From NCBI GenBank assembly GCA_027577595.1, contig JANBRJ010000093.1, forward strand, positions 1 through 64,000: a stretch of DNA of 64,000 bases, read 5' to 3'. A program made the position numbers and the translations under genes. The notes under the pieces were generated by a model. It saw nothing but the letters and a program-made list of their open reading frames with translations. It ran no database searches and had not been told where the DNA came from. How positions within the stretch are numbered: position 1 is the stretch's first letter; each line of letters starts with the position of its first letter. This stretch comes from Coemansia sp. RSA 487. Its lineage: Eukaryota > Kickxellomycota > Kickxellomycetes > Kickxellales > Kickxellaceae. Of the stretch, positions 26,870-56,706 are shown piece after piece.

Positions 26870-27880
26870 TCATAATATTGTTGGAAATACTGTGCAAAGT
26901 TTTAGCGAAACGTTGTTCTGCTGCTGGTCGAATGAACGTCATCGTGGCAATATGGCTCATTTGTCTGCTTGTCCGTTTGGGGATGCTGCATATCATGCAT
27001 CTGGTGCTCTATCTGCAAGCCACTTTCGCATAACCTAGCTCTCCATTCCTGTAAGTATTTCTGGTGTCTAAACAAGCAATTGAAAATGGGCTTGGCACAG
27101 CCCTACCACAAGACGTTAAGACACGCAGAGCCAAAGAGTGTTGCTATGATACGGTACTTGTGACTGGGTGGATGCATTGGATGGGTTAACTGTATTGCTG
27201 GTTGAGCTATCAATACTGACAATATAACAATACAAGTAAAGTACATTGCCCGCACCTTTCTAAGCGAGTTCCTGATATGATGATAACCCGCAGAATCACA
27301 AAAATCGCAATCTTTAGGGGATTTTCCGCGTTGCACAGATCTAGTGCTGGAATGTATTCAAGTGATTTTGATGGATGAAGTGCAGAAACGACAATTCCAC
27401 AGGCAAGAATGTATATAAATTAAATGCCAATTGGTAGGAAAAGCTGCTAGCTATGCGCCGGGAGACTCTGGATAAATACACAGAACTACGTATAGCACTG
27501 GGTAGTTACCAATGCGGTACTTGTGCAGACTCCCAATATTATGTGCACCTAAAACCAAAATCCACAGCAATCAGTCAGTGCTGAGCCAGCTAACTTCACG
27601 TGCCCGGCTATCTGTAGGTCGCCGATAAGCTAAAACGCAGATGAAATGTACATGGCTACCAGTATCATAGGTGCTGTGGATTTTAGCGGCGGGTACTTGT
27701 GGTTGATTAGAATAAACCGCGCTGAAAGTAGATTTACGGTGTAGATGCACGACAGCAGATATCACTACCACCAGATCCACAGTGTTGTGTGGCTCTAAGT
27801 TCAGCGTGAGGCCTGTAGCCACCACGACTCGTTTCTTTTTCAAGCTCAATATTTGGAAACGCCGTAGTTTTTGGCATCAA
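26870..27880 (-). pseudogene. Decayed 7TM receptor copy
   Basis: Pieces of the local receptor family occur in the right order on the minus strand, in several frames. Near 27850 is AFPNIELEKE, preceded by ACG where paralogues have the start ATG. Near 27790 is LNLEPHNTVDLVVVI (TM1), near 27250 are MYFTCIVILS and AIQLTHPMHPPS (TM6 and the following loop), and near 27060 are KPIFNCLF and HQKYLQEW (end of TM7 and the helix after it). Frame changes, stops and missing blocks separate them, including most of TM3-TM5. This is a dead copy, older than the intact neighbours A to C judging from how much has been lost. Confidence 0.85.
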
Positions 27881-28540
27881 ATAAATAGATGGAAAAGAGA
27901 AAAACATTCGCTCGTCTTCGATATATCTAAAATGGAGAAGGAATTGTGCTGCTGTTAGGAGACAAACCAAACCTAAGGTTTTGGATCTGGAATACTCCTT
28001 TCAGTTTATTAAAAAAAAGGATGTGTAGACCTAATGTGGTGAGATGTTGCAAATCCTCATGAAACGAATAAAAATTAATAAGTGAACCGATCCAGTTCAT
28101 TTTACATTCTATGAATACATGATTTTCCGGTCGGATGAAAAAAAGCTTGTTTGGTTCCACAATTTCATGTTTCCATTGCTAAAAGTAGACGTTAGTCCAC
28201 TTATGTACTTGAAAAAAAAACATTCCTGTAATTGCTCTCTCCTAGATCCTTCTCTGATCGAATCTAGGGATTGACTTTATGACATGTTGAGGACAATTGT
28301 AAAGCTGGGCAATGCACGTATTTTAGTCTAGTAATATTCACCGCGTGTGACCATTTTTCTTGTGCTCCTGTCGCACAATGGGCCAATGTCATTAGGCTAT
28401 AAAAGGAGACGTACGTCTGTGAAATTTGAAAAGCTCACACTTGTAAACGATAAAAATGCATATATTTGCTATTAGTAAACCCAAGGGGGAATACATCGTG
28501 TTAGAAAATCCAAATAAAAAACACGGCTGTTTCTAGTTAA
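27881..28540. other. Intergenic, no gene seen
   Basis: AT-rich spacer between the pseudogene and receptor A, holding the presumed 3' flank of A. No coding signal. Confidence 0.4.
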
Positions 28541-29575
28541 TTAGTCGTATCGAAACGATAATCTGCTGCCAGAGGACTGGTTATCAGCGCCATGGAGCGA
28601 AGAATTCGGTGCTTGCTTGGATGTTTCTAGCGGGTAGCTGTCATCCTCTACGTAGCGGTTTTGATAGCGCGGCATTTCGTACTCTTTCTGGAGATCATCT
28701 TCGTATAACTTGGCCGTCCATTCCTGCAAGTACTTCTGGCGTCTAAATAGGCAGCTGAAAAGAGGCTTGGCCATGATTCCCCACCATATGGCATTTACAG
28801 CAGCGGTGTCAAAGATCGTCGATATTATACGATACGTGCGATTGAGCGGGTATTGGGGGTGTGCAAACTGTATACCAGTGTTGATTGTTAGCGCCGTTAT
28901 CATAATGAAAAGAGAGAAAAACACCTCTCGTACCTCATTAAACGAGCTTCTGATGTTGCGAACCTTCCAAGTGACAAAGCAGGTAAAGGCATCGGTTACC
29001 CAAAGGATCACAAACATTGTCACCTTGAGAGGTTTGTCCATGTTGCACAGATCTAGCCCGGGAACATATTGGACCGATTTTGACGGCTTCAGTGCAGAAA
29101 CGACAATTCCAATAATAAGCAGGCACATAAAGTAGATACCAATGGGAAGGAAAAACCGCCATCCACGGCCAGGAAGATTCTGGTTAAATATACGGTAAAA
29201 GATATAGCAGCGTATGGATATTAACACGGTTATAGTGCAAACTCCCAATATTATGCGCACCCAAAACCCAAATCCACGACAGTCCGTCAAAACGGAGCCA
29301 ACCAGTGTTACATGCCCGTCCACCTGTAGGTCACCAATAAACCAAAACACCGATGAAATATACATCGCCGTCATGAGCAGCGGGCCTTTGGATCTCAGTG
29401 GCGGATACTTGCGGTTGAACAAAGCAAATAGCGTTGCACATAGGTTTATTCCGTAGATGCATGATAGCAGTATCACTATAACCAAATCAGCATTGTTGCG
29501 TGGATCCAGCTTCATGCCTACTGATTCTGCTGCCAACACTCGTTGGTTTTCAATCTCCGTATTTGGAAAGGTCAT
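28541..29575 (-). CDS. 7TM receptor A
   Basis: A 344-residue, intronless 7TM protein of the local receptor family. TM1 starts after LDPRNNADLVIVI, loop 1 is NRKYPPLRSKGP, and TM2 ends at WFIGDLQVDGHV. TM3 opens with Cys in TDCRGFGFW and loop 2 has Cys in LDLCNMD, a likely disulfide pair. Before TM6 lies SSFNEVREV, like the ICL3 motif of class C and plant/fungal RGS-type 7TM receptors. The segment after TM7 is LFRRQKYLQEWTAKLY, and the cytosolic tail is about 65 residues with no known domain. There is no large extracellular domain and no RGS domain. I infer a G-protein-coupled chemosensory role; ligand and G protein are unknown. Confidence 0.85.
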   Translation of the reverse strand: MTFPNTEIENQRVLAAESVGMKLDPRNNADLVIVILLSCIYGINLCATLFALFNRKYPPLRSKGPLLMTAMYISSVFWFIGDLQVDGHVTLVGSVLTDCRGFGFWVRIILGVCTITVLISIRCYIFYRIFNQNLPGRGWRFFLPIGIYFMCLLIIGIVVSALKPSKSVQYVPGLDLCNMDKPLKVTMFVILWVTDAFTCFVTWKVRNIRSSFNEVREVFFSLFIMITALTINTGIQFAHPQYPLNRTYRIISTIFDTAAVNAIWWGIMAKPLFSCLFRRQKYLQEWTAKLYEDDLQKEYEMPRYQNRYVEDDSYPLETSKQAPNSSLHGADNQSSGSRLSFRYD

Positions 29576-30527
29576 AATTTAAAATATTTAGAAAAGTATA
29601 ATGCTTAAATTGGAAAGAATTGTTGTTTTGGGGGGAGTTTGGATCCGCCAGTTGCGGAGAGGAAGGCTTAAAAGAGAAACCTCCATCCAAAAGTTTGGCT
29701 ATTGCTGAACTCCAAGCACGTAAATGGTTCCCTGAAAAGTAAGCAAGGCGGAAATGCGTGGTTGCAGGAACGCATCGTATTTGTATTACTCTTTACTTAA
29801 CTAAAAGTGATAAGTGTACCCCCCACGCGACCTGCAAATCCATAGAATTTGCATAATCTCGCACCCTGTTGATATGTATTGCACACGGAAAGACAGTTTC
29901 AGACAGTAAATCTCTGTTGCCTACAAAGAAAATTTTGGACATGTCTAAAAATTCATGACAACGATTCTGGCTTGCGCACTACACGCAAACAATTGAAAAG
30001 GATTCTCCAAGTACCATTGTTCTTGATGCTTGCATGGTTAATTGCCATTTCCCCATGCATATGTTACGTGGTCTACTTGTGCCATTTCCGTTGTGGATCA
30101 ATTGTAGTACGGTGGTTGTAAATTACGCCTCGGAAATACTTTTCCAGCACAAACTTATTTTAAGCGGCATCCAGTTTACATATGCCCTAAATTCATTGGA
30201 CAGTATCTGGTTGTCTAAGAGCATGGTATTCCTGTATCTGAAATTACTTGGTTCTGTTAAATAAATAATGGGATTGCCCAGCTTGATGGTCAATCATTAT
30301 AATTTATATATTTTAAATTTACAATTTGCATAACCCGTGTAGTAGGCATGGATTCTTTTTCTCATTATTTAATTGAAGCTGAGCAGGACACGGTCGTTGC
30401 TATGTTTCAAAAATTAAAACGTTGCTATTTCAATATGAGGTACTATTCGACCTCTTACAACCGCAATGAAACCGTTTAATTGCAGAAAGTAGGTAGATAC
30501 ACACTCTTATAATAACTAGAAAAAACA
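29576..30527. other. Intergenic; promoter of receptor A
   Basis: The first 45 bases next to receptor A closely match the same place next to receptor B, and a TATA-like element lies near 29655-29674. The remainder, to the 3' end of receptor B, is AT-rich without a recognisable gene. Confidence 0.5.
29655..29674 (-). promoter_or_regulatory. TATA-like element upstream of receptor A
   Basis: On the minus strand this reads CTTTTAAGCCTTCCTCTCC, about 85-100 bases before the start codon. Receptors B and C have a related TTTAAA- or TTAAAT-containing block joined to a CCTCYTCC-type pyrimidine run at the same distance. Confidence 0.4.
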
Positions 30528-31553
30528 TTAGCGAAATGTCAGTCTACTGGTGGAATGGATGTCAGTATCATGATACATATCGTCCGGTGATTGGCTAAAT
30601 GGTTCAAGCGGATGTATTTCTCGCGGTTGGTATTGGTTTTTGTAGTTTGTCATTTTATATTCTTTCTGGAGACCATCATCGTACAATTTAGCTGTCCATT
30701 CCCGCAAGTACTTCTGGCGTCTAAACAGGCAATTGAAAATAGGCTTGGCCATGATTCCCCACCACACAACGTTAACGCAGACCGAGTCAAAGAGCGTTGA
30801 TACTACGCGGAACCTACGGCTGAGCGGGTACCGGGGATGTGCAAACTGCATGGCAGTGTTGGTTGTCATTGACGCCAAGATAACGATACAAGTAAAGCAC
30901 ATTTCCCGCACCTCATTGAACGAGCTCTTGATATTGCGCGTCTTCCAAGTGATAAAGACGGTGAGGCCATAGGTAATCCAAAGAACAATAAACATTGCTA
31001 CTTTAAGAGGTTTATCCATGCTGCACAGATCTAACCCTGGAACGTAAAAGACGGATTTTGATGAATCAAGCACAGAAATAACAATGCCGACAACAACCAG
31101 ACATAAAAAGTAAATTCCGATTGGGAGGAAAAATCGCCATCCACGCGCGGGAAGATTTTGGTTAAATATACGGTAATAGATGTAGCTGCGTATAGCTATT
31201 AATCCCGTGATGGTACATGCCCCCACAAGTATACGTGCCCAAAACCCAAACCCACGGCAATGTTGTAGAACCGAGCCAACCAATGTTACGTGTCCATTGA
31301 TTTGTAGGTCGCCGACAAGCCAAAACGCAGACGAAATAAACATTGCCACCATTATCAGGGGGCCCTTAGATTTGAGCGGCGGATACTTGCGATTAGCTAG
31401 AACGAATAGCGCCGCAAAAAAGTTTATTCCGTAGACACACGACAACAGAATTACTACCGCCAAGTCTGCATTGTTGCGTGATTCCAGTTTCATGTTTGCT
31501 GACGCTGCCGCCAACACCCGTTGGGATTCAAGCTCTGTATTTGGAAAAGTCAT
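30528..31553 (-). CDS. 7TM receptor B
   Basis: A 341-residue paralogue, the closest relative of receptor A in the window. The family features are all intact: the MTFPNTELESQRVLAA start, Cys in HCRGFGFW at TM3, Cys in LDLCSMD in loop 2, KSSFNEVREM before TM6, FAHPRYPLSRRFRV between TM6 and TM7, and LFRRQKYLREWTAKLY after TM7. The tail is short (about 65 residues) and ends in a Ser/Thr-rich stretch STSRLTFR shared with C and H. The 5' flank also matches A, so the two arose by a duplication that carried the promoter. Confidence 0.86.
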   Translation of the reverse strand: MTFPNTELESQRVLAAASANMKLESRNNADLAVVILLSCVYGINFFAALFVLANRKYPPLKSKGPLIMVAMFISSAFWLVGDLQINGHVTLVGSVLQHCRGFGFWARILVGACTITGLIAIRSYIYYRIFNQNLPARGWRFFLPIGIYFLCLVVVGIVISVLDSSKSVFYVPGLDLCSMDKPLKVAMFIVLWITYGLTVFITWKTRNIKSSFNEVREMCFTCIVILASMTTNTAMQFAHPRYPLSRRFRVVSTLFDSVCVNVVWWGIMAKPIFNCLFRRQKYLREWTAKLYDDGLQKEYKMTNYKNQYQPREIHPLEPFSQSPDDMYHDTDIHSTSRLTFR

Positions 31554-32470
31554 GGTTTAAAATATTCAGAAAAGTATAATATTCAAAGTGAAAAATAATT
31601 ATTGTGGTTTGTTTTCGATACGCTCACTGTGGAAGAGGAATGGCTTTTAAAGGACAAAAGCACTTAAAATAGCCATGGCCGAATCTCCAACGGCGATTTT
31701 TCAGAGATATGCAGGACATATGCACTCAAACCACGATATGCGTTGTTGCAGAATTGGTTTGGCTCAGTCTATACGTCTTTTCAAATTAAAAAAGTGGTGA
31801 ATATGCCCCATGTCGTGTAAATCCTAATGAAGCGTGTATCAATAAGACAAGCTTGTAAACTTTGAACGAATTTTCTCGATTCACCTGCTTCTCGGATTAC
31901 ATTGCAATGGCGCTATATATTTGCATCCGGAAAAGATGTTTGCAGATTGTAAGTCACTGTTGCTTTTAAAGGAACATAGATTACGATACCGTTTACGGAA
32001 ACGCAAAACATGTTTTCTGGTCAATTGATAAAACTTGTTTTGATTTATGCTTGGAATGTTCCAATTAAAAGAAAAGAGGATGTCAATGCGACTTGCTCAA
32101 ATTTGGCAGAATAAGTCTTCTTTTAAAAAAAAGCCAGTGCCCTGTTTGTCACCAGGAAGCAGATTGTTTGTATAACTGTATGTCAACGTATGCAACAATT
32201 CCAACTTGTCGTGTTTTAAGTGAAATTGTATGCCAAACACAAAATTACAAACACAATTGCGATTAATCTCCTGATGTTTAATTTTTGCCATATGCGCAGT
32301 TAATCATTGTTGTAGCATGCTTATATCCCTTACCATTATCTTCACGGTTTCTTAATTGATCTATTTGCATTTTGAATCTCCCAGAGCGTCGCGATAAAGC
32401 TCCACTGATAGTTCCAAAATTCTCACATTATATTTGATTTTAATGAAATTTAGCTACCAATTAGCCAATA
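31554..32470. other. Intergenic; promoter of receptor B
   Basis: Contains the A-like leader and TATA-like element of receptor B near its left end. The rest is AT-rich with only short, non-coding frames. Confidence 0.5.
31632..31653 (-). promoter_or_regulatory. TATA-like element upstream of receptor B
   Basis: On the minus strand CCTTTAAAAGCCATTCCTCT lies about 80-100 bases before the start codon of receptor B, matching the element of receptor A in sequence order and distance. Confidence 0.45.
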
Positions 32471-33496
32471 TTAACTAAATGTCAATCTGCTGCTTGTAGA
32501 ATGAGTATTGGCGCCATAATACAAGTCATTCAGTTGCTTGTGTGGTCCCAGTGGATGTGCTTCTTGCTGCTCATATTGGTTTTGATGTCTTGTCATTTCA
32601 TACTCTTTCTGGAGACCGTCCTCATATAATTTAGCCATCCATTCCTGCAAATACTCCTAGCGTCTAAATAGGCAATTGACAATGGGTTTAGCCATGATTC
32701 CCCACCACACTACGTTAACGCACACCGAGTCAAAGAGCGTCGCTACTATACGAAACCTGCGACTGAGCGGGTACTGAGGGTGGGTGAACTGAATTGCGGT
32801 GTTGGTTGTCAATGACGCCAAGATAACAATACATGTAAAGAGCATTTCCTGTACCTCATTAAACGAACTTTTGATGTTGCGCGTCTTCCAAGCAATAAAG
32901 GCCGAAAGAGCACAGGTAACCCAGAGAACAACATAAATTGTTATTTTAAGGGGATTATCCATGTTGCACAGATCTAGCCCTGGAACGTATTCAAGTGATT
33001 TTGACGGATGAAGTACATAAATAACAATTCCACAAGCAACAAGACACGTAAAATATATGCCGATAGGTAGATAGAATTGCCAGCCACGAACCGGGAGATT
33101 CTGGATGAATACACGGTAGAAAGTGTAACAGCGCATAGTAATTAATGAGGTAATAGCACACGCTCCTACCAATATACGCCCCCAAAATCCAAACCCACGG
33201 CAGTATTGTAGAACCGATCCAGCTAACGTTACGTGTCCGTCTACCTGCAGGTCGCCGATAAGCCAAAATACAGATGAAATAGACATTGCAGCCATTATCA
33301 TGGGACCCTTGGATTTAAGCGGCGGGTATTTGCGATTAATTAGAATGTATAGCGTTGCAAATAGGTTTATTCCGTAGATACATGACAACAGAATCACGAC
33401 TACCAAATCCGCAGTGTTGCGTGACTCCAGCTTCATGCTTGCTGATGCTGGCGCTAGCACTCGTCGGTTTTCTAGATTAATATTTGGAAAAGGCAT
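32471..33496 (-). pseudogene. 7TM receptor C with one in-frame TAG
   Basis: The reading frame is intact over 342 codons, the same length as receptor B, except for one TAG at 32657-32659. It falls just after TM7, in LFRR followed by the stop, where receptors A and B have Gln (CAG) in LFRRQKYL. After the stop the frame continues with EYLQEWMAKLYEDGLQ and ends STSSRLTFS, still matching paralogues. The first 279 residues keep all seven TMs, both loop cysteines and KSSFNEVQEM. The gene is therefore either a very young pseudogene, a functional receptor with a shortened tail, or a read-through or edited gene. With only one change it must be recent. Confidence 0.8.
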
Positions 33497-34387
33497 AATT
33501 TAAATTAAGAGATGGTTGAAAACATTGTAAAGGGAGCAAGCCTACTCTGGTCGTTTTTAATGCCTAATGGAGGAGGAAAAGGTATTTAACTACAGAGACC
33601 CAGAGAATTGGTAGCTGCCAAAGCTTGGCTGGCAATCTTTCAGAGTAATATACACATAGTGGATGCTGTTTTTTATTTTGGCTCGGTGATACATTTAACC
33701 TGCTTAAAGAATGGAGAACTCACCCGGTTTTGTTAGTAAATCACACAAAACCTGTTTAAACTCGGAAAGATCGTATCCAGTCAGAGGGTGAATCGGTTCA
33801 CTCACTTTGCATTGTATGGGTTCTATGACTTTTTTATCATCCAGAAGGGTATTTTACGCATGGTAAATCTCACTTATCAGCAAAACAACCAGTTCTTGTG
33901 TTGCAAAGAACACCATGCAGGTTTTCCGATCTAAAGAAAATAGCCTGTAAACTTTACAAGTTGCTCTGATCAGCAATTGCCATTATTGCTGGCGCTTCCA
34001 TTCAGAAGTCTGTTCACCTGCTGCAAAGACACCAACGTTTAATAGCTTGGGTGATTTCGGCCCCACCGCACAGCAAAGCAAAATGAAAATGCCTGCACGA
34101 ATAATACCGCCGCTAGCTTTAAATGAGCGCGCTGGCGATCCGAAAGCTGGACATCAATGTTCCTCTTGGATCGGATCGCAGTCCAGTGATTTTGATCAAA
34201 GTAATTAGCTCAAAAGATGAAGGATTGAACAGCAGCTGTTTTTTTAAAAGTGCATGGATCTCCCCCATCCCACTTCTATTAGCTATTAATTCTTGCATCC
34301 GCGCTAGTTGAAATTAGCTACTCTTGTGCTTTTATATACATTCATTCTTTCTTTATTCACTTATTCATTCAGATTGGGCGATTCAAG
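33497..34387. other. Divergent spacer, receptor C and COG5
   Basis: Holds the promoters of receptor C (-) and COG5 (+). A T/C-rich run with TTCATTC-type repeats at about 34341-34372 precedes COG5. No further gene is seen. Confidence 0.5.
33569..33589 (-). promoter_or_regulatory. TATA-like element upstream of receptor C
   Basis: On the minus strand TTAAATACCTTTTCCTCCTCC lies about 75-95 bases before the start codon, the same order of AT box then pyrimidine run as in receptors A and B. Confidence 0.35.
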
Positions 34388-38974: not shown

Positions 38975-41573
38975 ATGCAAGACCCAGCTATGGATCAAAT
39001 AGCCCAAGTGCTAAAAAACCTCATTGAGTCTCAAAATGCGCGCGACATAAGACAAGAAGAGCGCGACAGGAGGCAAGAGCGTGACACAAAACACGAAGCA
39101 GAGTTTAGTGAGCTTCGACAGACCAATCAGGAAATCCTAACTAGCTTGAAAAACCTGAATACAGTTCCTGCGGCTCCACGCCAGGGCAACTTCCGCCGCC
39201 TCCAGGTAAAGTGATTGATATTTCCTGCCCTTTTTGACCAACGGTAATGCGTCATTGTGGCCAGGACAAACTAAAATAATGCGTTGCTTCATCTCATATA
39301 CACGCTGCATCTTGTAGGGATCCGATCCTCGTTTTCGCAGCCTGTTTATGAAACTCCAACGAAACGTGGGACTGGATTTACCCGTTCAGGTTCAGAATAT
39401 GTTGAGCAGCTCATAGGGCAAATCACAGGGCAGAGCACAGAGCAGAGCACAGAGCAGAGCACAGGGCAGAGCATAGGTATGTGAGCACTTGAAATGGTAT
39501 ATGTAGTGGTTCCTTTTACTTTTGTGTGGACCGTCTCGCTTTATGTGCTGCTTTCCTTGCAAATACGTCATCAAATTCACTCATCAATGGGCATTTGTTT
39601 TCTTCATCTATTGAATAGACTCTACGCCACATAGTCTTCGAAATCAGATTGGTGGTACAGCAGCGGAGCGGTACAAGACTATTGGACGCCACATTGCCCC
39701 ATATACTTTCAAGTCTGCGGATATATATCAGATTTTGGATCATTACAGGATTGCTTTGCCACAGCTTGGCTCATTGAATGACACCAAAAGCGAGATCAGC
39801 AAGATCCAGAGCAAATTTAGGGATCTATACTCAAAGTCAACTATATTGGAAGGCGATTATTATAAAAATAGCCAACTAAAACCAATGACGACTGAGCGGC
39901 ATGTCCAGAATGCAATGTACTTGCTACTTTTGAGTGTTTACGAGACTATAGCGACTCGCAATGACAAGCCGCGATTGAGGTGCTGCGACACGTCGGCTAG
40001 CCCATTAGACGATGCAAACAAGCCTGATTTTGTGTTCGTTCCGGCAGATACAGACAACGCTGATTGGGAATCGGCCTGTGTGGCCATTGAACTAAAAGCG
40101 ATCAACAGGGTCGGTGAAAGTGCTCTTCACGGACAGATCGGACACTACTTCAATCAGATGTGGAGGTTGTAGCCACGAAAGTACTGTGTTGGACTGGTGT
40201 CGTACAAGGATGAGCTGCACATATTGCTCAATACGCGTGATGCTATCAACCATGCGGTGGTAGGTAAGCTGCCGTTCGTAGACAGCGTAAGAAAGTGCAT
40301 CTACAGAAGCAGAGAGAATGCACATATAACATTCAAGGAAGGAAACGGCGAGTTGGTGGTGCGCGCTTTGGCGATGATATTTGGCATGAGTTTGGAGCAG
40401 TGTGGTTTCCTTGTTCCGCAGCTAGGAGGCGTATATCACCAGTTCGGCTTACTTGTGGAAAAGCCGAGCATAGATCAGGCCGAGGCGGTGCTATCAGCTG
40501 TTGCTGGCAGCACTCCAACCGCAAATTGTCTGATTAATTTGTCTATCGGCGGTTATCTCAGCGGTCGTGTGATGTTTCCAGTTGGAACAACGTCATGGGT
40601 CCACAAAGCCAGTGTTGATGTACGCACCGGAAATAACAGTTTCCAAGGTAGTGCTGTGGTCAAGATCCAGTGGCGCCGCAGCTCGCGTCGGACTGAGAGT
40701 AGCGTGTATAGGGTGCTGCATGATATGAAAATCCCAAACGTTCCGCAGGTTATCTTTAGCGGCTGTATCGGGATGGGAACACTACGCATAGAAAGCAGAT
40801 GTGATGTGCTGGTTTTGGAGCCATGCGGAGTTGGTATCATCCAGTATGTTCAGAAGCTTGCCGCTGGGCATGAAACCAATCACTGGATGCTGCTGGATGT
40901 CGCTTGCGGCTATATTCACACATTGTATGCAGCTTGGTCAGGGACAACATATAAGATTCTACACAGAGACATTTCATCGGGAAATCTCATGGTTGCCAAC
41001 AACTCTGCCCGTGTTATCGACTGGGAGTACGGCCTGTTATTCAACATCAACCGGAGACCGGGAGTAAATGCCGATTCTCTCACAGGAACTATGGTATACG
41101 CGAGTATGGCGGTTTTGAGGGGTGTGACCCTCCGCACACCATTCGATGACATTGAGTCTCTTTTTTACGTGCTTATGCATGCTATCGAAAAAGCCTACAA
41201 CAACCACGGAAAAGGCAGAGGCACTGCCCAGAACAAAACTGCACAAAGGCTCTGGGATGGAAACCTATCGGTAGAAGAGCTGATCAACGAGAGGATAACC
41301 GTGTTCGGCTCCGGGATAGAATACAAGAAACGCCTGGGTGCCAAATGCCCATCCTCCTGGATTGTCTTGGTTGAATCCATGTACAATGCCCTTGCCATTG
41401 GCACTCAGGCCACGCTTTCGGATGTCACCTTTGATATCGACTTTGATGAATGCATGCAGCGGCTGGTTCAAGATCTCCAGCCATTGCTGCAAGAGCGCGA
41501 GATGGATTCCAACCATTACACTGCACTATTGCGGTTTTGCAACACTGTCGGCAAAAGGACATCAGCAGCTTGA
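38975..41573 (+). pseudogene. FunK1-type protein kinase gene with in-frame TAG
   Basis: Three exons fit with consistent phases: 38975-39205, 39341-39476 and 39619-41573, with donors GTAAAG and GTATGT and acceptors CGCAG and AATAG. The joined frame has 774 codons, with one internal TAG at 40170-40172. The N-terminus is charged and coiled-coil-like; exon 2 holds a small GQSTEQS tandem repeat. The C-terminal 350 codons match FunK1 fungal kinases: VVKIQWRR (Lys), LHRDISSGNLM (catalytic loop), VIDWEYGLL (metal Asp). After the stop the frame (PRKYCVGLVSYKDELHILL) continues in register with family-like sequence, so the stop is a single recent change, or is read through. It may be a young pseudogene; kinase residues are all preserved. 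Confidence 0.75.
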
Positions 41574-42112: not shown

Positions 42113-43051
42113 TCAAACACGATTTGCACTATACGCAGAAAAAAACATTGGCTCACTGTTGCAGCCATCTTGTTTATTCCACTTGGCCAAATACACGTCG
42201 CGGTACAGCAGACAGCCGTAGATGGCGCGGCCAGCGATGATCCACCAGGCGGTGATACATGAAGCCTGGTCGATGCAAATAACAGCGATACGCCAGCCAA
42301 GCGTGGTCGGGTACTTTGGTCGCTTATAGTAGACGACAGTGTGGAAAGTCAGGGCCACAGCCAGCGCCAAGCACGCAGCCAGCAGATAGTGGCCCTCGCT
42401 GTGTGCGCATGCGACTTTGCAAACAACAAACACCGACGTCAGAAACACGGTGCCCCACAACGCCCATGCCAGAATGACGCCTGTGTTTTTGAACGCCGGT
42501 GTGAACTCGCATACGTCCAGCCCGTCGATGAACCTGACGGTCCGGTCGCTGGGGACTAGTGTGGTGATAGCGGCAATGGCCATGTTGCATGCCAGAATAG
42601 CACCGGCTGCCAGCCACTGGATCCGGCGACTACGGGCCTTCTTCATGTCGGCACTCAAGAATCGGTATCGAAGCATGGCCAGGATGCTATGAAACGATAG
42701 GACGCTGATGACCATGCCTTGACCCAGCGCTGTGCGCAGCCACACTGTGGTGAACAGGCAGTTGGCGGTGATGCCCTTCGGATGGGCCATATTGTTGGTA
42801 AACAAGTCGCCTACAAACCACAGCACACTGGCTGCGTACATCAGTGCCAGCGACGATGGCACGAGTGCGCTAATCGGCCGGTAATTGCGGTTGGCTACGA
42901 CGTATAAGACGGCAGCCAGTTGCGCAAGGTAGATGGATGCGCACGTAATGATGGTTGCTAGGTCGCTGTATCCAATGTGATCCATCCGAATGCCGAGTAA
43001 ACTTGCGAATACTACGCGCACCTTTTCCTTTTCTGTGTATTCAAAACTCAT
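42113..43051 (-). CDS. 7TM receptor D, divergent
   Basis: A 312-residue member, the most divergent in the array. I start at 43051 (MSFEYTEKEKVRV) because receptor E starts MSFEYTADEQ; the frame extends 22 codons further up. TM1 to TM7 are present. The cysteine before TM3 (TANCLFTTVW) and in loop 2 (LDVCEF) are kept. The SFNE motif before TM6 is gone (AHSEGHYLL instead), and the region after TM7 is cut short: LLYRDVYLAKWNKQDGC, then about 15 residues. It lacks the DGLQ..Y segment seen in A to C and E to I. Its G-protein coupling, if any, may differ or be lost. Confidence 0.78.
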   Translation of the reverse strand: MSFEYTEKEKVRVVFASLLGIRMDHIGYSDLATIITCASIYLAQLAAVLYVVANRNYRPISALVPSSLALMYAASVLWFVGDLFTNNMAHPKGITANCLFTTVWLRTALGQGMVISVLSFHSILAMLRYRFLSADMKKARSRRIQWLAAGAILACNMAIAAITTLVPSDRTVRFIDGLDVCEFTPAFKNTGVILAWALWGTVFLTSVFVVCKVACAHSEGHYLLAACLALAVALTFHTVVYYKRPKYPTTLGWRIAVICIDQASCITAWWIIAGRAIYGCLLYRDVYLAKWNKQDGCNSEPMFFSAYSANRV

Positions 43052-43310
43052 ACCCAACAGTTTTTTTGTTTGAAAAATCATAAAATAGGATACACAAGGA
43101 AAAAAACTTAGATACAATTGAATCTCTACACTTCCGCCTTTTGTAAGCCTTACATCTTCATATACAAGTGAGGAGAGAGGGATTTATCTTGTAACTTTTT
43201 TCACCTTGGCCGCCACACGTTTTCTGAATGTCACTTACCCTTGCATATCTTTACCTGCATTGATAAGTAAAAAAAAGGTATTGAATTATGAAGGATAAAA
43301 TTAAAAAATG

Positions 43311-47095: not shown

Positions 47096-47112
47096 CCAAC
47101 AAAAAAGTGTCT

Positions 47113-47523: not shown

Positions 47524-47701
47524 TGCGAAACAAGTATTCCGTCTGACCTTGATTGAATGAATAAATAAATAAATAAAATTAATGTACAAGCAAAATTGAT
47601 TTGTCAAAGAGGAAAAGAGAGCGATTTTTGTATTGGCATCGAACACAAAATACACTAAAGATCCCGTGACACGAAGCACATTAACTGGAACAATCGAAAA
47701 T

Positions 47702-49114
47702 CTAGAGAAGCTGGCGATTGGTGCCATCGAGTGGTGCCAAATGCAGCTCGTTTGCATCGTTCAGCCGCAGCGGTGCTGATGCGTTTTCGGTGTAGCTGAA
47801 TTGAACCGAAGCAAATTTCTGCTGCTGCTGCTTCTGCTTCTGCTGCTGCGGGGCATTTGCACCTGTCAGCCCTGACAGAGACCGGCCTACCAGGCTCGAC
47901 TCGGACGATGCATCCAACGATGGGCTTTCCGGACGCTCCTTGTGCTCAGCGTACCGAGTTCCCACCGCCGCTGACTCCAGATGCGCATTGTACGCATCGT
48001 AAAAGAACCTGCCTCCGCCAAAATTCGCATGCTTCTCGATATCAACATCTCCGCCGCCATTGAAGTAGCAGTACGCCTCCTCGTCGCCACCCATGTACTT
48101 GGGAGCCATGCCGCCATCCAAGTAAGCCGACTCGAGCAACGAGCCATGTACATCTGGCTGCCTGTCGCCAATGCTTGTGCCCCGAAGCGAAGCCGACGCA
48201 ACCTGGTACTCGCGCTGCAGCCCGTCTCTGCGCAGCTTGGCCACCCATCTGTCCAAATACGCTTTTCTATGGAACAAGCACTGGTACATTGGCACGGCCA
48301 TAATGAGCCACCACACGACGTTTGTGGCCAGATGGTCCAGCACCGTGGTCGCTATACGCAGCCCCACGCTAAGCGGGTACCGGGGCCTCGCGTAGTGCAT
48401 GGCTGTTGTGAATATGAGGATGGCAAAGACCGCAATGCAAGCAGCCAGCATCTCGCGGCTCTCATTGAACGAGCTTCGGATCTTGCGGATCCGCCAGTTG
48501 ATCAGCGCAACCAGGATCCAGGTTGCCCAGAGCAGCGCAAACAGCGACGCCTTGTATCCGGCCTCGTAGTAGCAGATGTCGATTATCTGCATATAATGGA
48601 TTGTGATATTGGATGACACCACTTGCGACACAATTCCGTACACCACGATACAGACACAGTAGATAAGGAACGGAAGATACAGACTCACTCCGTTATAAGG
48701 CAAGTTGCGGCAAAACACACGGTACAGACCATACGACCTTAGCGCGATTAGTGCACTGAGCGTGCATACGCCCAGAAGCACCCGCACCCACACGCCAAAC
48801 GCCTTGCAGTTGGTCATGGGCGTGCCGGCCAGCGGCGCATGCCCGTTGACTTGGATGTCGCCAGCAAACCATAGTACTGCAGCCGCCATGAACCCCGCCA
48901 TAATGAATGGACTTTTCGACTTTAGCGGCGGGTACTTGCGGTTCCACAGCATGTAAACTACTGCCAGCGCATCGATGCCGTAGACGACCGAGATTACTAT
49001 CACCATCACAAGGTCCGCCGTCCCGCGTGGATCCACTGTGATGTTGTCCATTGCTCCAGCAAGAACCCGCAGTCGTTCATTTTCGGTTGTACCGAATGAC
49101 ATTGTGTTGCCCAT
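47702..49114 (-). CDS. 7TM receptor F, longest tail
   Basis: A 470-residue member. The start could be 49114 (MGNT) or 49102 (MSFGTTENERLRV), the latter matching the MSF starts of D and E. The 7TM domain is intact: NRKYPPLKSKSP in loop 1, Cys in TNCKAFGVW at TM3, Cys in IDICYYE in loop 2, KIRSSFNESREM before TM6, and LFHRKAYLDRWVAKLRRDGLQ after TM7. The tail of about 180 residues has a Gly/Tyr-rich part, a Ser-rich part and a Gln/Lys run, with no recognised domain. Base composition is GC-richer than A to C, indicating a different age or history. Confidence 0.86.
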   Translation of the reverse strand: MGNTMSFGTTENERLRVLAGAMDNITVDPRGTADLVMVIVISVVYGIDALAVVYMLWNRKYPPLKSKSPFIMAGFMAAAVLWFAGDIQVNGHAPLAGTPMTNCKAFGVWVRVLLGVCTLSALIALRSYGLYRVFCRNLPYNGVSLYLPFLIYCVCIVVYGIVSQVVSSNITIHYMQIIDICYYEAGYKASLFALLWATWILVALINWRIRKIRSSFNESREMLAACIAVFAILIFTTAMHYARPRYPLSVGLRIATTVLDHLATNVVWWLIMAVPMYQCLFHRKAYLDRWVAKLRRDGLQREYQVASASLRGTSIGDRQPDVHGSLLESAYLDGGMAPKYMGGDEEAYCYFNGGGDVDIEKHANFGGGRFFYDAYNAHLESAAVGTRYAEHKERPESPSLDASSESSLVGRSLSGLTGANAPQQQKQKQQQQKFASVQFSYTENASAPLRLNDANELHLAPLDGTNRQLL

Positions 49115-49970: not shown

Positions 49971-50485
49971 CGTCAGTGCAAAACATGAAAACACAAAACA
50001 ATACAAATGGTTAGCACTGTTGTCGAGTATCCTTCTTTTATGATCAAGTCAAATGGCTTTTCAATATTCCTGTGATGTGTATTTTCTGCAATGTCCTCTA
50101 GTTTTAGGTTTATTTTGTTTGCTTTTGGTTCTTTTCTTGCTCGAGATGTTTATTCTGTTTTTTCTTCTCTGTAACTACTCTTTGGTGGATCAACATCCAT
50201 CAACATACACATGCGCACAAACATGTTCTCTGGTTTCTTATTCGAGGGACAGTTTTCTTCCATGTCTACACCTGGGAAAGAGTGCATGGCTTAGTTGTTA
50301 TTGTTTGAAATAGTGGTATTTCTTCAGACTGTTAGGTTCTATTGGGATCAATGTTAACTAGCCACATTGAAAGCACAAATAGAGACCGAGAAGCCAATCT
50401 ATTTTAGTGTGAAATAACAGGCGTGTAGCGAGCAGCTTTATCCACAAAGCTAGGTTTGTGCCTCTTGCTTCCAAACGCAAACATA

Positions 50486-50584
50486 ACGCCAACCGACGCA
50501 AACGACTTTTTCTTGGAACGCAAATGCGCTATCGCCACCGCAAACCTTCCACTATTCGACGTAATTGGTTTTGCAAAACACAGT
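50486..50584 (-). repeat. Right arm of inverted repeat
   Basis: Inverted counterpart of 49842-49970, about 515 bases away. Both arms can be read as a short similar peptide (CAIATANLP, then KHSI), so the sequence may once have coded for protein, but no start or longer frame supports a gene now. Confidence 0.75.
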
Positions 50585-50671
50585 ATATCAGTACAATTGC
50601 ATTCAGATTTGATTAAATTAAAGCGTTCTTATTTTGACCAGCAAAAGAACACTATCGGCATGAATCTTTTG

Positions 50672-51919
50672 TTACAAAGCACGCTTGCTATGGCTGGATG
50701 TCAAGCGGAAACTATCGTCATCGTGTAAAATAGTCGACGGCTGCCAACTGACTGTTCGCGATCTTTCCTGGTAGGGGTCAATATGAAGGGGTGAGCGTTT
50801 TTTGCCAAGCGTGAGCGTGCCAAGCGCATGCGCAAATCGCCGCTGCAACGAGTGTTTGCCTTCCGACTGCATCGAGCGTATTTCCTGCATACCTCCGTCT
50901 TTCTGAGGTGTCCATAAGCGAACGCCCGCGTTGTTTACAGAGTAGGCGATGTGACTACTGTACTGTAGATTAGCATGACTAAGCGGTTGATCCAAGGGAA
51001 GGCTCTGTTCGTTCTCCAGCTGGTACTGGTGTTGCAATCCGTCTTGCTGCAGCTGAGCGACCCATTTACGAAGATACGTTTCGCGTCGAAACATACAGTT
51101 GAATAGTGGCCACGCCATGAGAGCCCACCATACAGCGTTGGCAGTTACATGGTCAAAGACTGTAGCAGCGATTCTGTACCCTCGACTCAGCGCATAATGC
51201 GGATGCGTAAACTGCACAATCGTGTTGAACAGAATCGACGCAAGCATAATTACACACGCAAATGCCATCTCGCGGGACTCGTCGAACGAGCTCTTTATAT
51301 TGCGAATAAGCCATGTCAACACGATTATCGATATGATTGAAAGCCATGCAAAGACAAACACTGCCTTTTTCAACGGAGTATCCGAGTTACAAACATCCAG
51401 CGCTGGGTCGTATTTAGCCGTATCATTCGTATTTAGAGTAAGTGAGAGAATTCCGAAAATAACCAAGCACGCAAAGTACACGATGATTGGCACACAGAAC
51501 CGCCATCCGCGAGGAGACATGTTCAGGCGAAACACATGGAACAGCATGTACGAGCGAATGCCTAATACCGCAGAAAACAGGCACACGCCTAGCAATAGCT
51601 GGATCCAAAACCCAAACGCCCGGCAATTCGTAAGCACTGACCCAGCAAGTGTCACGTTGCCGTTTACTTGGATATCTCCGACAAACCAAAAGGCTGACCC
51701 GATAAACAAAAACACCATGAGTACTGGGCCCTTTGATTTAAGGGGCGGGTAATTGTAGTTCCATAAAAGAAAAAGCACAGCTAAAAAGTCTATCGAATAA
51801 ACGATGCTAAACAACACCACGATGGCAACATCCGACGAGTTGCGTGGATCCAGTTTGAGTCCGCTCGAGGCTGCCGCTGCGACTCGTTGCTGTTCTAGCT
51901 CTGGGTTTGGAAATGCCAT
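50672..51919 (-). CDS. 7TM receptor G
   Basis: A 415-residue member with start MAFPNPELEQQRVAAA. The TM3 Cys (TNCRAFGFW) and loop 2 Cys (LDVCNSD) are present. The motif before TM6 is KSSFDESREM, with Asp in place of Asn of SFNE. After TM7 the run is MFRRETYLRKWVAQLQQDGLQHQYQ. The tail of about 130 residues is Ser/Gln/His-rich and contains RTVSWQPS, shared in form with RSISWQPS of receptor I, which suggests that G and I are close relatives or that this tail segment is functional. Confidence 0.86.
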   Translation of the reverse strand: MAFPNPELEQQRVAAAASSGLKLDPRNSSDVAIVVLFSIVYSIDFLAVLFLLWNYNYPPLKSKGPVLMVFLFIGSAFWFVGDIQVNGNVTLAGSVLTNCRAFGFWIQLLLGVCLFSAVLGIRSYMLFHVFRLNMSPRGWRFCVPIIVYFACLVIFGILSLTLNTNDTAKYDPALDVCNSDTPLKKAVFVFAWLSIISIIVLTWLIRNIKSSFDESREMAFACVIMLASILFNTIVQFTHPHYALSRGYRIAATVFDHVTANAVWWALMAWPLFNCMFRRETYLRKWVAQLQQDGLQHQYQLENEQSLPLDQPLSHANLQYSSHIAYSVNNAGVRLWTPQKDGGMQEIRSMQSEGKHSLQRRFAHALGTLTLGKKRSPLHIDPYQERSRTVSWQPSTILHDDDSFRLTSSHSKRAL

Positions 51920-54170
51920 TAGTACCTGTTGTGAGAATGTCTAAAGTGTATTAAAATGAAAATAAGGGATTTAAAAAAAAGAAATGTCGTGAAGGAAAGG
52001 AAAAGTATTTACCGAACTCATCAACATACCAGAAAAACATCTATAAAAAGCAACTGAGAAAAATAGGGTGGGCTGGGCGGTCCATTCTTATGCACCTTGT
52101 GCATGTTTGTTTTCCCTCAAACCTTCCCCAAATTTGGGTTGTGTCTGTAGATAAAGTGAAAATGATGGACAACTATTACGTATGCTGTGCAGTTGCACAT
52201 ACACAGAGCCAATAAGGTTCTCGGTTTGAGATCATAAGCACCATGCTTGTTTCTTTAAAGAGCTCGATCAACATTCGTGAATGCGCAATATCACTTTTTT
52301 CAAAACAAGAAACAATTTTTGCATGTGGCTCAGCGAGTAGTATCGTGGTAATGGAATCATTGGGAATACTCCCTTTCATTAAATACCGGCTGGCAGCCCA
52401 CTCGTGTGTCTGTCCATTGATTCCATATGCAATATCATGTTTGTTGTTGTTTGAGGCGGTAGGCACAGTACCAATTGAATTGCCTGAGGACATGATACCA
52501 CAATGGGAGCTTTTATTTATTTGCTGCATGTTAATGCACAAGAACAATATCCAAAAAAATGCTGACTGAAAATGTATATGTTGCCTTGGGCTGCAATTAA
52601 CGACAACAATAAGGGGCCGTATACGGTATCGAAAATCGTGGGTGGTTTGGTGGAAGTTCTACAAATCAGTTGTGCTCGATGTGTATGCAATCTATATTTT
52701 TATCGTTTCTGATTACATAGCATCCAAGAGAGGTACGCTTTTCCTAAAAAATAAAAAAGCTGGCCGGAGATTAAAATTGAAAATAAATAAATAAAAAGCT
52801 AAGCTATCATTTGCTACGCAAATTATGTTTTAGCCGGTATATTCTAGTCCTTTTGTTGTAATATATAATGCTAGTGGACAATGTAGTGCGAAATTATCTA
52901 GTTTGTTTTTTCTAGGGGCTTTCGTTGCTAGCGGATTTCTACTGCCGTTACAGTGGTTCAGGGTGACCATTGATACTTTAAATCCCTTCTTGGCCCGTTT
53001 TCTTTGCAGACTCAATCCTCGTTCATCTACGGGACAAGTTCAGACATGGTGCCAGCCAATCATTACAATACCAACCAGGCATCGGATATGGTCTGCGGCT
53101 GATAGCGGTGAGACCACTGTTTTACGAGTGCAGCATCGGCTCCTGTAGAGTCCTTGGCTGGCAGAAGGAGACATCAAACAGGCTATTAACTAGTACGCAG
53201 GCATTATTTTCGTTTGTGCATTTCCAGCTGATATCTCCCTTTGGCTAAAAAGATCAGCAAGCTTTCAATATCCAAGCAAATAGCAACAATAAAAGAACCA
53301 TCGGTTAGGATCGTTGTTGCATTTTGTATTGCAAATCCTTGATCCCTTTACTGAATCGCTGCATGAGTGGCGAAATTTGACAATAAATATAATTCAACAA
53401 CATTAGCTGCAAGCTGTGCCCTTACGTATACGTGCCTGTATGTCTGTAAAGAGCAAAAAAATTGTCGTCCAACTAAATATTCAAACTAAAATCGAGGATC
53501 AAAATGGGTCGGAGCTTTTTCTCAAAAGGCAACTTATTTCCATTCGCATCATTTCCAGCAGAAATCTCTTGTTCGTCTGGTATCTACACGCATGTGTGCC
53601 ATATTTAATTTGTAGAAAAGCACTATTGGTAGAAATATATTTTATGATTCACATATCAGGAAATCTAACCGAAATGGGTGCCCATGTTACTATTTGTTTT
53701 GTGGTCGTTTGAATCCTAGAAAAGAGATTGCATGATATTGCATCGTTCCGATATGTGATATATACTGTTTAGGCCAATGATTTACAATCCATTCTGTTAT
53801 CTAGGATGCATTTATTATCTAAACGCAAGATATTTGACATCTGAAAAGGAACGATTACATGATGCTTCTTTACCTCTGTATTCACATATGTGTGGAATGA
53901 TTTGCCCAAGTGCACAGCATACTTTAAATCTAAAATATGTTTACAAGTTTTGGTGCATGCTTACAGTAGTTCGTATCCGGCTTGAATGCGCCAAAAACAA
54001 AAAAGTACTTTAATTTGCGCCCAAATAGGACATATCCATCAAGAACCAACATAAAGAGGCCGCTTCCTGAGCTTCTCGAATATAATTATTTTCAACTACA
54101 TCCTTTTTCTTCAGCTTTCTTTATCATATTTCCCTATTTGCTTTATTTGCATATTGAACTACCATCTACC
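51920..54170. other. Large intergenic gap, possible DUF218 scrap
   Basis: A 2.2-kb AT-rich gap between divergent receptors G and H. One segment, described separately at 52190-52529, may be a gene fragment. A TATA-like TTTTTATAGA (minus strand, near 52045) is a candidate promoter for receptor G. Nothing else is recognisable. Confidence 0.4.
52190..52529 (-). pseudogene. Possible fragment of DUF218 (YdcF/SanA-like) protein
   Basis: A 117-codon frame reads SSGNSIGTVP, then GQTHEWAASRYLMKGSIPND, then ILLAEPHAKIVS and HSRMLIELFKE. The order resembles DUF218 proteins: an SGG-type loop, an E..A..RYL helix, a gxP..I.xE strand, an S.NT.EN turn and a final sKxLL helix. Key residues are only partly kept and the frame ends early, so it is likely decayed. 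The match is by eye and weak; it may be chance. Confidence 0.3.
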
Positions 54171-55196
54171 ATGGTCCTTCCGAATACGGAGCTCGAAAAA
54201 CAACGAGTGTTGGTGGCAGAAGCGATGGGGTTGAAGCTAGATCCACGCGGCACTGCCGATTTAGTGGTCGTAATATTGCTTTCGGTCGTTTATTCAATCG
54301 ACTTTATAACAGCCATACTTGTCTTGGTCAACCGCAAGTATCCACCGCTAAAGTCCAAAGGTCCAATTTTTATGGTGTGCGTGTTTATTGGGTCCATTTT
54401 CTGGTTTACCGGCGACATACACAGTAATGGGCTTGTAACAATAAAGGGCTCAACCCTGACTAACTGCAGTGGTTGGGCTATTTGGGTGCGTATTGTGTTG
54501 AGCGTCTGCGGTTACACCGCGTGCTTGGCTATTCGCAGTTACAGCTTTTACCGTGTATTTAGGCAGAATCTTCCGGCCCGAGGGTTATCCTTTCTTCTTC
54601 CCATTGCTGGTTACTTTGTATGTCTTTTAATTTACGGTATCGTCTTTACAGCGTTGGGACCATCTAAATCCGCTTACTATATTCCAGAACTAGACTTGTG
54701 CGAGCTTACTACACCTTTAAAAGCAACACGCTTTGTGTTTCTGTGGTGCACTGGCGCCTTTACCGGCTTCATCTTTTGGAAGATTCGCAACATCAAGAGC
54801 TCGTTTAGGGAGGTGTGTGAGATGCTAAGCGTCCCTCTTGTCATTTTGGCAGGATTGCTAATCAACACAGTCATCTTGTTCAAGTATCCCCTATACCCGC
54901 TTAATCGCAGTTATCGCATTGCGTTAACGCTTGTTGACGCAATGATTATTAATGTCCTGTGGCGGGGGATCATCGCCAAGCCCCTTTTCAATTGCCTGTT
55001 TGGGCGCAATGCCTACTTACAGGAGTGGAAGGATAAGCTATGCAAGGATGGTTTACAGAGAGAATATCAGCTGGCGACCAACCTCAACCAAGCTCAGCAA
55101 TACGAAAGTCGCCCACTCAAAGCGTACAAGCAATTGGATGATCCGTATTACGGCACTGAAAGCCACTCCACCAGCGACAGGATAACGTTTCGCTGA
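54171..55196 (+). CDS. 7TM receptor H, only copy on the plus strand
   Basis: A 341-residue member starting MVLPNTELEKQRVLVA; the frame extends upstream to 53982 but the paralogues support 54171. Features: NRKYPPLKSKGP in loop 1, WFTGDIHSNG at the end of TM2, Cys in TNCSGWAIW at TM3, Cys in LDLCELT in loop 2, and KSSFREVCEM before TM6, where Asn of SFNE is replaced by Arg. The post-TM7 stretch is LFGRNAYLQEWKDKLCKDGLQ. The tail is short and ends STSDRITFR, like B and C. Orientation is opposite to all other members. Confidence 0.85.
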   Translation: MVLPNTELEKQRVLVAEAMGLKLDPRGTADLVVVILLSVVYSIDFITAILVLVNRKYPPLKSKGPIFMVCVFIGSIFWFTGDIHSNGLVTIKGSTLTNCSGWAIWVRIVLSVCGYTACLAIRSYSFYRVFRQNLPARGLSFLLPIAGYFVCLLIYGIVFTALGPSKSAYYIPELDLCELTTPLKATRFVFLWCTGAFTGFIFWKIRNIKSSFREVCEMLSVPLVILAGLLINTVILFKYPLYPLNRSYRIALTLVDAMIINVLWRGIIAKPLFNCLFGRNAYLQEWKDKLCKDGLQREYQLATNLNQAQQYESRPLKAYKQLDDPYYGTESHSTSDRITFR

Positions 55197-55410
55197 GATT
55201 AGGCAATAGGCAATTTTATTTGGACCTTGTTAAAGCAGCCTGTTGCTTACAATGTTTCAGAAAGTGCGATAGCCGAGTTATAGTCGAATTATTCGTTTAA
55301 CGTTCGCAAACTTTTTTGAATGGAAACTTAATCGGAGGAGGCCAAATGGGTACTATCAAACTGTTTTTGCCAAAATTAGATAAAGTAGCAATATATACTT
55401 TTTAGGCAAA

Positions 55411-56706
55411 TTACAGGATCCGCCGTCCGTTATTATCTTCCAAATCATATACACTATCGTGTTGCAGCTCATTTGCCGAGGGCTGCCAGCTAATGGAGCG
55501 TGTGCCGTTTGACAAATGTGGCTGACGCAGCTCTATCCGAGTATCGGTATTTTCGGTCCTGTGCTGACTGTTTGTTTGCATCAAATCAATTGCACCAGTA
55601 AACGACGGATACGCTGGAGCATAATTATCTTCACTTTGCCACATCCTTTCTTCGTGGGTGTCTTTATAGAAAAATTCGTTGGCACTTATTGGCGGTTTCT
55701 TGAGGAACGTCATTCCACTATCCGTGTACTGCATGTTGTTGTAGAGATATGCGTCGTGCGGCTGGATAAGCTCCTGGTCAAGGTACTGGCCATGATCGCT
55801 GCCCACTTGGTACTCTCGCTGCAAACCGTCCTGACGAAGCTTGGATATCCACTCTCGCAAGTACCCCTCGCGTCTAAAGAGACAATTGAAAAGGGGTTTA
55901 GCCAAGACTCCCCACCACAGAGCATTGGCACATGCCATGTCAAACAGCGTGGAAGCTATACGGTACTTGCGCTCCAACGGATAAACAGGATGTGTAAACT
56001 GTATCGCACTATTGAACGTCATCGAACCCAAAACAACAATGCAAGCAAAAAACATCTCCCAGGTCTCCCTGAAGGAACTCTTGATATTGCGGATCATCCA
56101 GGTAAGAAGGGCGACGAACAGAAGCGAAATCCAGACAAATATGAATATTGTTATTTTGAATGGCTCATCTAGACTGCATATGTCGAGGTTCGGGACGTAT
56201 TCTGCCGACTTTGATGGACTAAGGGCCATAGCAACAATTCCAAAGGCAAGAATGCACACAAAGTATACAACAATCGGCAAGAAAAAGCGCCAGCTGCGAA
56301 GAGGTAAGTTTAAGGAAAACACGTGGTAGAAAGCATATGTGCGGATGGCAACAACTGCAGTGACTGTGCAGATGCCCAAGAGCACACGCACCCAGAATCC
56401 AAAGCCTCGACAGTCTGTTAAAACGGAACCAGTCAGCGTCACATGGCCATTGACTTGCATATCACCGACAAACCAAAACACTGACGCGATAAACATAATC
56501 ACCATAAGGATAGGATTTTTGGACTTGAGTGGCGGGTACTTGTGGTTGAATATTAGGAACATCACTGCTATCAGGTTTATTGCGAAAATGCATGACAGCA
56601 GGACCACAACTACAAGATCGGCAGTGCTGCGTGGATCCAGCACTATGCCCATTGATTTTGCCGCCAATACTCGCTGCTGTTCTAGCTCGGGATTTGGAAA
56701 TGGCAT
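55411..56706 (-). CDS. 7TM receptor I
   Basis: A 431-residue member starting MPFPNPELEQQRVLAA. Features: HKYPPLKSKNP in loop 1, WFVGDMQVNGHV at the end of TM2, Cys in TDCRGFGFW at TM3, Cys in LDICSLD in loop 2, KSSFRETWEM before TM6 (Arg at the Asn position, as in H), and LFRREGYLREWISKLRQDGLQREYQ after TM7. The tail of about 145 residues includes RSISWQPS, as in G. It is convergent with receptor H, with about 210 bases between the stop codons. Confidence 0.86.
   Translation of the reverse strand: MPFPNPELEQQRVLAAKSMGIVLDPRSTADLVVVVLLSCIFAINLIAVMFLIFNHKYPPLKSKNPILMVIMFIASVFWFVGDMQVNGHVTLTGSVLTDCRGFGFWVRVLLGICTVTAVVAIRTYAFYHVFSLNLPLRSWRFFLPIVVYFVCILAFGIVAMALSPSKSAEYVPNLDICSLDEPFKITIFIFVWISLLFVALLTWMIRNIKSSFRETWEMFFACIVVLGSMTFNSAIQFTHPVYPLERKYRIASTLFDMACANALWWGVLAKPLFNCLFRREGYLREWISKLRQDGLQREYQVGSDHGQYLDQELIQPHDAYLYNNMQYTDSGMTFLKKPPISANEFFYKDTHEERMWQSEDNYAPAYPSFTGAIDLMQTNSQHRTENTDTRIELRQPHLSNGTRSISWQPSANELQHDSVYDLEDNNGRRIL

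Follow-up and report, generated by a model that had tools for sequence, protein, structure and literature searches.

The question raised by this locus is what kind of protein is encoded by a tandem series of related single-exon genes, and how these copies come and go. The window (the whole stretch analysed, 64,000 nucleotides of contig JANBRJ010000093.1 of Coemansia sp. RSA 487; assembly GCA_027577595.1, 17.8 Mb in 184 contigs) holds at about 26.9–56.7 kb nine open frames and one decayed copy of one single-exon seven-transmembrane (7TM) family; Coemansia belongs to the Kickxellales, Kickxellomycota. A first, sequence-only reading had taken the family for G protein-coupled receptors (GPCRs). 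Our answer, which we consider likely, is that the array represents class C-type (GABA-B/GPR156/GPR158-like) seven-helix GPCRs, expanded in the Kickxellales, which lack a Venus-flytrap ectodomain and would sense small signals. The computations show the homology, the predicted fold, the short N-terminus, purifying selection and the turnover of copies.

Predicted fold and homology of the family

AlphaFold2 models were made for two copies, receptor I and then receptor D, the latter with a mean predicted local distance difference test score (pLDDT) of 87. Both are predicted to form the class C GPCR bundle, the fold that the sequence-only reading had advised to look for, with GABA-B, GPR156, GPR158 and mGlu receptors as best Foldseek matches; GPR156 took ranks 1 and 2, and identity to the 7TM domains of human GPR156, GPR158 and GABA-B was about 9–16%. 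No transporter was present among the 50 matches listed in each of the two Foldseek lists. The outcomes that the sequence-only reading had named as speaking against it, a non-GPCR fold or a transporter as best match, thus did not appear, and the profile matches likewise fell on 7tm_3 and, in the PDB, on mGlu and GPR158.

In the model of I, 27 residues precede transmembrane helix (TM) 1. A search of the assembly for the flytrap domain ANF_receptor (PF01094) found nothing at E ≤ 1 and was positive in 7 of 14 control genomes; it was aimed at ANF_receptor only, and other binding-protein domains are unlikely to fit because the N-termini are too short. Among known receptors, GABA-B and GPR158 have large ectodomains and GPR156 is not known to have one. 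As no Venus-flytrap domain was found, we treat the family as a variant of the class C-type 7TM proteins that lacks the ectodomain, not as canonical class C receptors.

The comparison with Pfam 7tm_3 (PF00003) was positive for four of the nine window copies (A, B, C and G), which exceed the curated cut-off of 33.5 bits; nine family loci, I included, do so in a six-frame search, and 26 of 45 diverse family members match at E ≤ 0.001. The cysteines noticed before in TM3 (C99) and extracellular loop (ECL) 2 (C177) are invariant in 22/22 open copies of the assembly and may be joined by a disulphide. An SFNE-like motif before TM6 had been claimed for most copies and is found in eight of nine in the window, exactly in A, B, C, E and F and as SFRE or SFDE in H, I and G; D has AHSE. 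The YL..W..KL..DGLQ block after TM7 is also kept in most window copies and is broken in D. The motif belongs to a block in intracellular loop (ICL) 3, RNIxSSFNE, that aligns with mGlu7 and mGlu4, in which the class C pattern R-N/G-V/I-x3-F-N-E faces the G protein; outside D, R206 is present in 20/21 copies and F212 in 21/21. Overall, conservation is highest in ICL1 and ICL3, and ECL2 and the tail are variable. Receptor D, rightly singled out as highly divergent, is the most divergent copy of the array: its ICL3 reads CKVACAHSE instead of RNIKSSFNE, both R206 and F212 are gone, and its changes in ICL2 vary with the alignment. It may be a non-coupling partner or a gene on its way out.

Copies of the array, their turnover and range

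Ten tandem copies were counted (Table 1): eight intact, one interrupted by a nonsense codon (C) and one decayed. With I as query, the other array copies were found at E values of 1.3e-138 to 4e-28, far beyond chance, and at 27–59% identity. The description as nine genes and a pseudogene of one intronless family agrees with the frames and single exons, except that C carries an in-frame TAG after TM7; its family tail is still readable 3' of the stop. The location of a tandem array of about 30 kb is likewise correct, but the array is not contiguous: unrelated genes (COG5, a fungal protein kinase, a pyridoxal-dependent decarboxylase and Elf1) lie between the copies, and H is on the strand opposite to all others. 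Receptors A and B had been called near-twins, which does not hold, as they share 229 of 341 residues (67.2%; 73.5% at the nucleotide level) and the closest pair is B–C with 76.0% amino acid identity.

Table 1. Family copies in the window (aa, amino acids; ORF, open reading frame; bit scores are those for 7tm_3)
Copy	Position	Strand	Remarks
Decayed copy (pseudogene)	26905..27865	-	two pieces in different frames, one with 4 TAG + 1 TAA, the other with 1 TAG
Receptor A, 344 aa, short tail	28541..29575	-	Pfam 7tm_3 38.8 bits, above the 33.5 cut-off
Receptor B, 341 aa, short tail	30528..31553	-	34.2 bits
Receptor C, 279 aa frame, TAG just after TM7	32657..33496	-	39.2 bits
Receptor D, 312 aa from ATG	42113..43051	-	ORF opens at 43117 with TTG; no 7tm_3 match
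Receptor E, 450 aa	43311..44663	-	39% identity to I; no 7tm_3 match
Receptor F, 470 aa, C-terminus RQLL	47702..49114	-	27.9 bits, under the cut-off
Receptor G, 415 aa, C-terminus KRAL	50672..51919	-	37.8 bits
Receptor H, 341 aa from family-conserved Met, short tail	54171..55196	+	ORF opens at 53982; no 7tm_3 match
Receptor I, 431 aa, C-terminus RRIL	55411..56706	-	33.2 bits; 34.9 in six-frame search

Ratios of nonsynonymous to synonymous substitution rates (dN/dS) were 0.14–0.34 in nine of 13 pairs and 0.42 for D–E, with three pairs saturated; several dS values exceed 1, which makes those ratios rough. For B–C we obtained 0.17 (NG86) and 0.24 (YN00). When codon changes were assigned to lineages before the position of the stop in C, the decayed copy showed 34 nonsynonymous vs 8 synonymous changes; the respective numbers were 27:34 for A, 9:21 for B and 20:24 for C. 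These values support that the decayed copy evolves in a neutral-looking manner and that the live copies are under purifying selection. Past its TAG, C has accumulated five nonsynonymous and six synonymous changes, not clearly different from those before it, so the stop is either young or harmless; the codon may be read through.

Stops derived from TGG to TAG changes in the dead copy prompted a comparison with repeat-induced point mutation, which we reject: C>T plus G>A changes (42/271) stand against A>G plus T>C changes (37/346), and CpG (17/58), not CpA (14/88), is the hottest context, indicating ordinary decay. As a separate observation, C>T in this copy is commonest at CpG compared with CpC (3/67), which may point to cytosine methylation.

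Two quick trees were calculated, the first from 12/22 assembly copies and 31/126 relatives, the second, which includes all open genome copies as had been suggested, from 22/22 copies and 112/126 relatives (14 fragments, fusions or duplicates dropped); both carry long-branch warnings for D, C46 and C90, the second also for C127, C171 and E. Single array copies found relatives in sister species: G pairs with a protein of RSA 1200 (support 100) and H with a protein of RSA 2049/1939 (99), A falls within a group of RSA 2559 and RSA 1939 at a position that is not fixed exactly, and D has no close relative in the trees. B and C pair with each other (95 and 88) beside RSA 2399 (97). Several duplications in the array thus predate these species, and the B/C pair is younger. 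Neighbouring family pairs also exist in other species, as seen from consecutive locus tags (H4217_006147/006148, H4R99_003158/003159, GGI20_004876/004877, EV175_002605/002606, H4S06_001431/001432 and GGI07_001900/001901). Taken together, constraint on dN/dS, a neutral-looking dead copy with six stops and a frame change, a young B/C pair, sister-species relatives and adjacent locus tags bear out the birth-and-death pattern, dead copies included, that had been read from the array.

Outside the array, 13 further family loci were found on 10 contigs, of which C172, C109 and C145 hold two each, so that the assembly contains at least 23 loci; three distant members used as queries revealed no additional locus in it, and the counts are lower bounds. 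Three protein searches yielded 41 + 25 + 60 = 126 relatives. All 122 with a named source come from Coemansia, Kickxella or Martensiomyces, in a search that depends on shared 5-residue words and that distant kin could escape; the latter two genera we take to belong to the Kickxellales, as does Coemansia. Four relatives lack a source name: P0002, P0003 and P0031, which correspond to F, I and G of the window, and P0063. From RSA 1646, P0067 is identical to one protein of the assembly and P0036 differs slightly from its counterpart. In the C66 lineage most Coemansia species have a single gene, whereas Kickxella and Benny D115 have additional ones. A tblastn search against plasmids gave no match to the family. 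The family probably expanded within the Kickxellales, a little-studied group of fungi.

Automatic annotation has mis-fused at least two family genes, and catalogues may therefore under-report the family. In EV178_005156 (P0001, RSA 1646) segments of B and A (window 28541–31553) seem to have been joined spuriously. A 689-aa ORF without Pfam match adjoins I (57541–59610), and the annotation of BCRC 34490 (P0040) runs a similar stretch into the first part of an I-like gene; the neighbourhood of I thus seems conserved. Within the array, a separate ORF (39735–40172) in front of the Pkinase_fungal gene (40197–41573) may be its 5' part. Elsewhere, C37 (L029:334-2034) and C58 (L030:2001-3791) each encode a 7TM protein that matches 7tm_3 in part and RGS at its C-terminus; since C37 has another RGS match within a few kb, there may be a second small tandem set here.

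Upstream of the copies no convincing common promoter element was found: a few words exceed their shuffled controls, for which mononucleotide shuffling only was used (e.g. three 10-mers vs a mean of 0), and these are mostly pyrimidine or A/T runs. A and B have the 12-mer ATTATACTTTTC in common, in both cases 27 bases ahead of the start codon (upstream of 29575 and 31553 on the minus strand).

A recurrent C-terminal tetrapeptide

New here is a C-terminal tetrapeptide that recurs in five subclades with otherwise dissimilar tails. Ten of the 22 copies end in [RK][RQ][IAL][IL], and RRII, RHVL and RQLL are examples across the family. The strict form [RK][RKHQN][ILVM][ILV]-COOH is present in 75/117 rows over five clades (C66, 7/24; array, 18/35; C172, 5/5; C145, 16/20; C109a, 29/33) and in 1/9 others, counts that are inflated by relatedness among rows; shuffled tails lead one to expect about 0.01–0.02 per clade. 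A looser form occurs in 19/24 rows of the C66 clade. The count covers 126 of 148 rows, after exclusion of 12 labelled partial, 9 duplicates and copy C. Little else aligns by eye between the tails of different clades, and the tail of I is disordered in the model.

The tails of p24 proteins end in a phi-C COPII export signal, e.g. the terminal Ile-Ile of Erv25p, which is defined as one or two hydrophobic residues at the very end of the tail (PMC5464768). The family tails have this form, although the definition is loose and the likeness is one of sequence form only; the four p24-family proteins of the assembly end in KKLV, KKLI, RGVV and RSRL. By this likeness the tetrapeptide is a putative signal for export from the endoplasmic reticulum (ER) or for coat binding, and it offers a simple handle on trafficking. 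Receptors A, B and H and the relatives P0006, P0007, P0013 and P0016 (341–346 residues each) share a short tail without the tetrapeptide, which looks like one ancestral stop and not like decay; C, read past its stop, has a tail of the same type.

Proposed function and relation to known systems

For the family we infer a chemosensory role. The receptors would act at the plasma membrane, paired as class C-type dimers, and the 7TM cavity itself would be where small diffusible signals from nutrients, mating partners or neighbours are sensed; they would signal via ICL2 and the RNIxSSFNE block of ICL3 to the two G-alpha subunits of the assembly. Many members would leave the ER by the hydrophobic C-terminal signal R-[RHQ]-[IVLM]-[LI]-COOH, in the manner of p24 phi-C, and tandem duplication, divergence and copy death would widen the sensing range. 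Six-frame searches, which may miss intron-bearing genes, revealed two G-alpha matches over the full length, seven weaker and partial ones (two of these just over the cut-off together with their neighbours) and no fewer than six RGS matches. Along with the conservation of ICL1 and ICL3 and the variability of ECL2 and tails, this fits receptors that act on a limited number of G proteins.

Several results weigh against this interpretation. Among the window copies searched, D, E and H gave no 7tm_3 match; taken by themselves, the PDB sequence matches do not reach significance (E 0.038), and the mGlu/PDB matches were lost with a narrower profile (A4). Class A receptors (rhodopsin, orexin, galanin or motilin receptors) appear further down the Foldseek lists at E of about 0.0025–0.006. 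The altered ICL3 of D, the rough or saturated dN/dS estimates and the D–E value, the missing promoter element and the lack of the narrow C-terminal motif in 12/22 copies (A, B, C, D, E, H, C8, C90, C127, C171, C1 and C66) belong here as well. Finally, the inner and outer TM halves do not differ in conservation (P = 0.88), so that nothing hints at a ligand pocket of unusual variability; the idea of hypervariable outer halves, as in ligand-selected receptors, was rejected.

Without an ectodomain, and with GPR156 at the top of the Foldseek list, the copies may also be class C-fold receptors that signal constitutively, as GPR156 reportedly does; expression level or partner choice would then set signalling, and the array would provide dosage and partner variety. 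We regard this as unlikely, because the copies differ strongly in sequence but keep ICL1 and ICL3, a pattern better explained by ligand diversification than by dosage, although either ligand sensing in the 7TM cavity or GPR156-like constitutive signalling may apply. A bolder version of the chemosensory reading, which we hold to be decidedly doubtful, divides labour by tail: long-tailed members would carry the conserved signal for ER export at their C-terminus, and the clade with short tails (A, B, H, C and their relatives), which lacks it, would serve solely as obligate heterodimer partners, as would D, which has lost the coupling motif of ICL3, together forming a chemosensory repertoire of ectodomain-stripped class C receptors. 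If true, GABA-B logic, in which one subunit traffics and couples and the other tunes, would have been reinvented within one fungal array. Improbable in our view is a loss of G protein coupling in proteins of class C ancestry that now serve as scaffold, trafficking factor or transporter-like protein, their C-terminal signal supporting ER–Golgi cycling as in p24; the likeness of the tails to three of the p24 ends (KKLV, KKLI and RGVV, the fourth being RSRL) and the lost ICL3 residues of D agree with it, but conservation peaks in ICL1 and ICL3, and the listed Foldseek matches contain no transporter. That the family is not a GPCR family at all and shares only a common helical arrangement with class C is very improbable, the weak E-values of the PDB sequence matches being the point in its favour.

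The receptors we thus favour, ectodomain-less class C-type GPCRs, have published counterparts, and the statement that such repertoires are rarely described in fungi was too strong: 78 class C receptors are in print for Allomyces (Krishnan et al. 2012, PMC3251606) and 51, 24 and 32 for gut fungi of the Neocallimastigomycota (PMC5168858). Fungal 7tm_3 proteins are classified as GPCR class 16/XVI, ‘Glutamate’ (Liu et al. 2025, PMC12842992; PMC13308352), and share with the array family the Pfam domain (PF00003), their occurrence in early-diverging fungi and large lineage-specific sets; a table in PMC13308352 labels class XVI ‘uncharacterized’. The main texts of PMC12842992 and PMC3251606 contain no occurrence of Kickxell- or Coemansia, and their supplements may list members; literature searches with partial coverage (titles and abstract beginnings) returned no receptor study of the Kickxellales and no paper on receptor arrays in them. 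The main difference from published fungal class C receptors is the short N-terminus: against the 27 residues of I, novel glutamate-family sequences of fungi and other eukaryotes have N-termini of 57–1667 residues, many with binding-protein domains (PMC3251606), and the Neocallimastigomycota receptors, also class C 7TM proteins present in dozens per species, have N-terminal domains of 200–1600 residues, many with putative sugar-binding folds (PMC5168858). Pth11-like receptors (class XIV, Pezizomycotina) resemble the array family as expanded 7TM sets, partly subtelomeric in one species, but have another Pfam definition (CFEM/fungal rhodopsin, PF05730 and PF20684; PMC13308352). The nearest functional lead, by analogy, may be the mating-induced class C receptors of Rhizopus microsporus proposed for trisporic acid, three genes in Mucoromycotina that cluster with GABA receptors and are likened to our family by description, not by sequence (PMC5705715). 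Fungal class C receptors are thus catalogued and functionally blank, and the array family adds members that are ectodomain-less, numerous, tandem and turning over. Two questions thereby become testable: how a class C 7TM domain switches without a flytrap, and whether fungi maintain a chemoreceptor-style birth-and-death repertoire.

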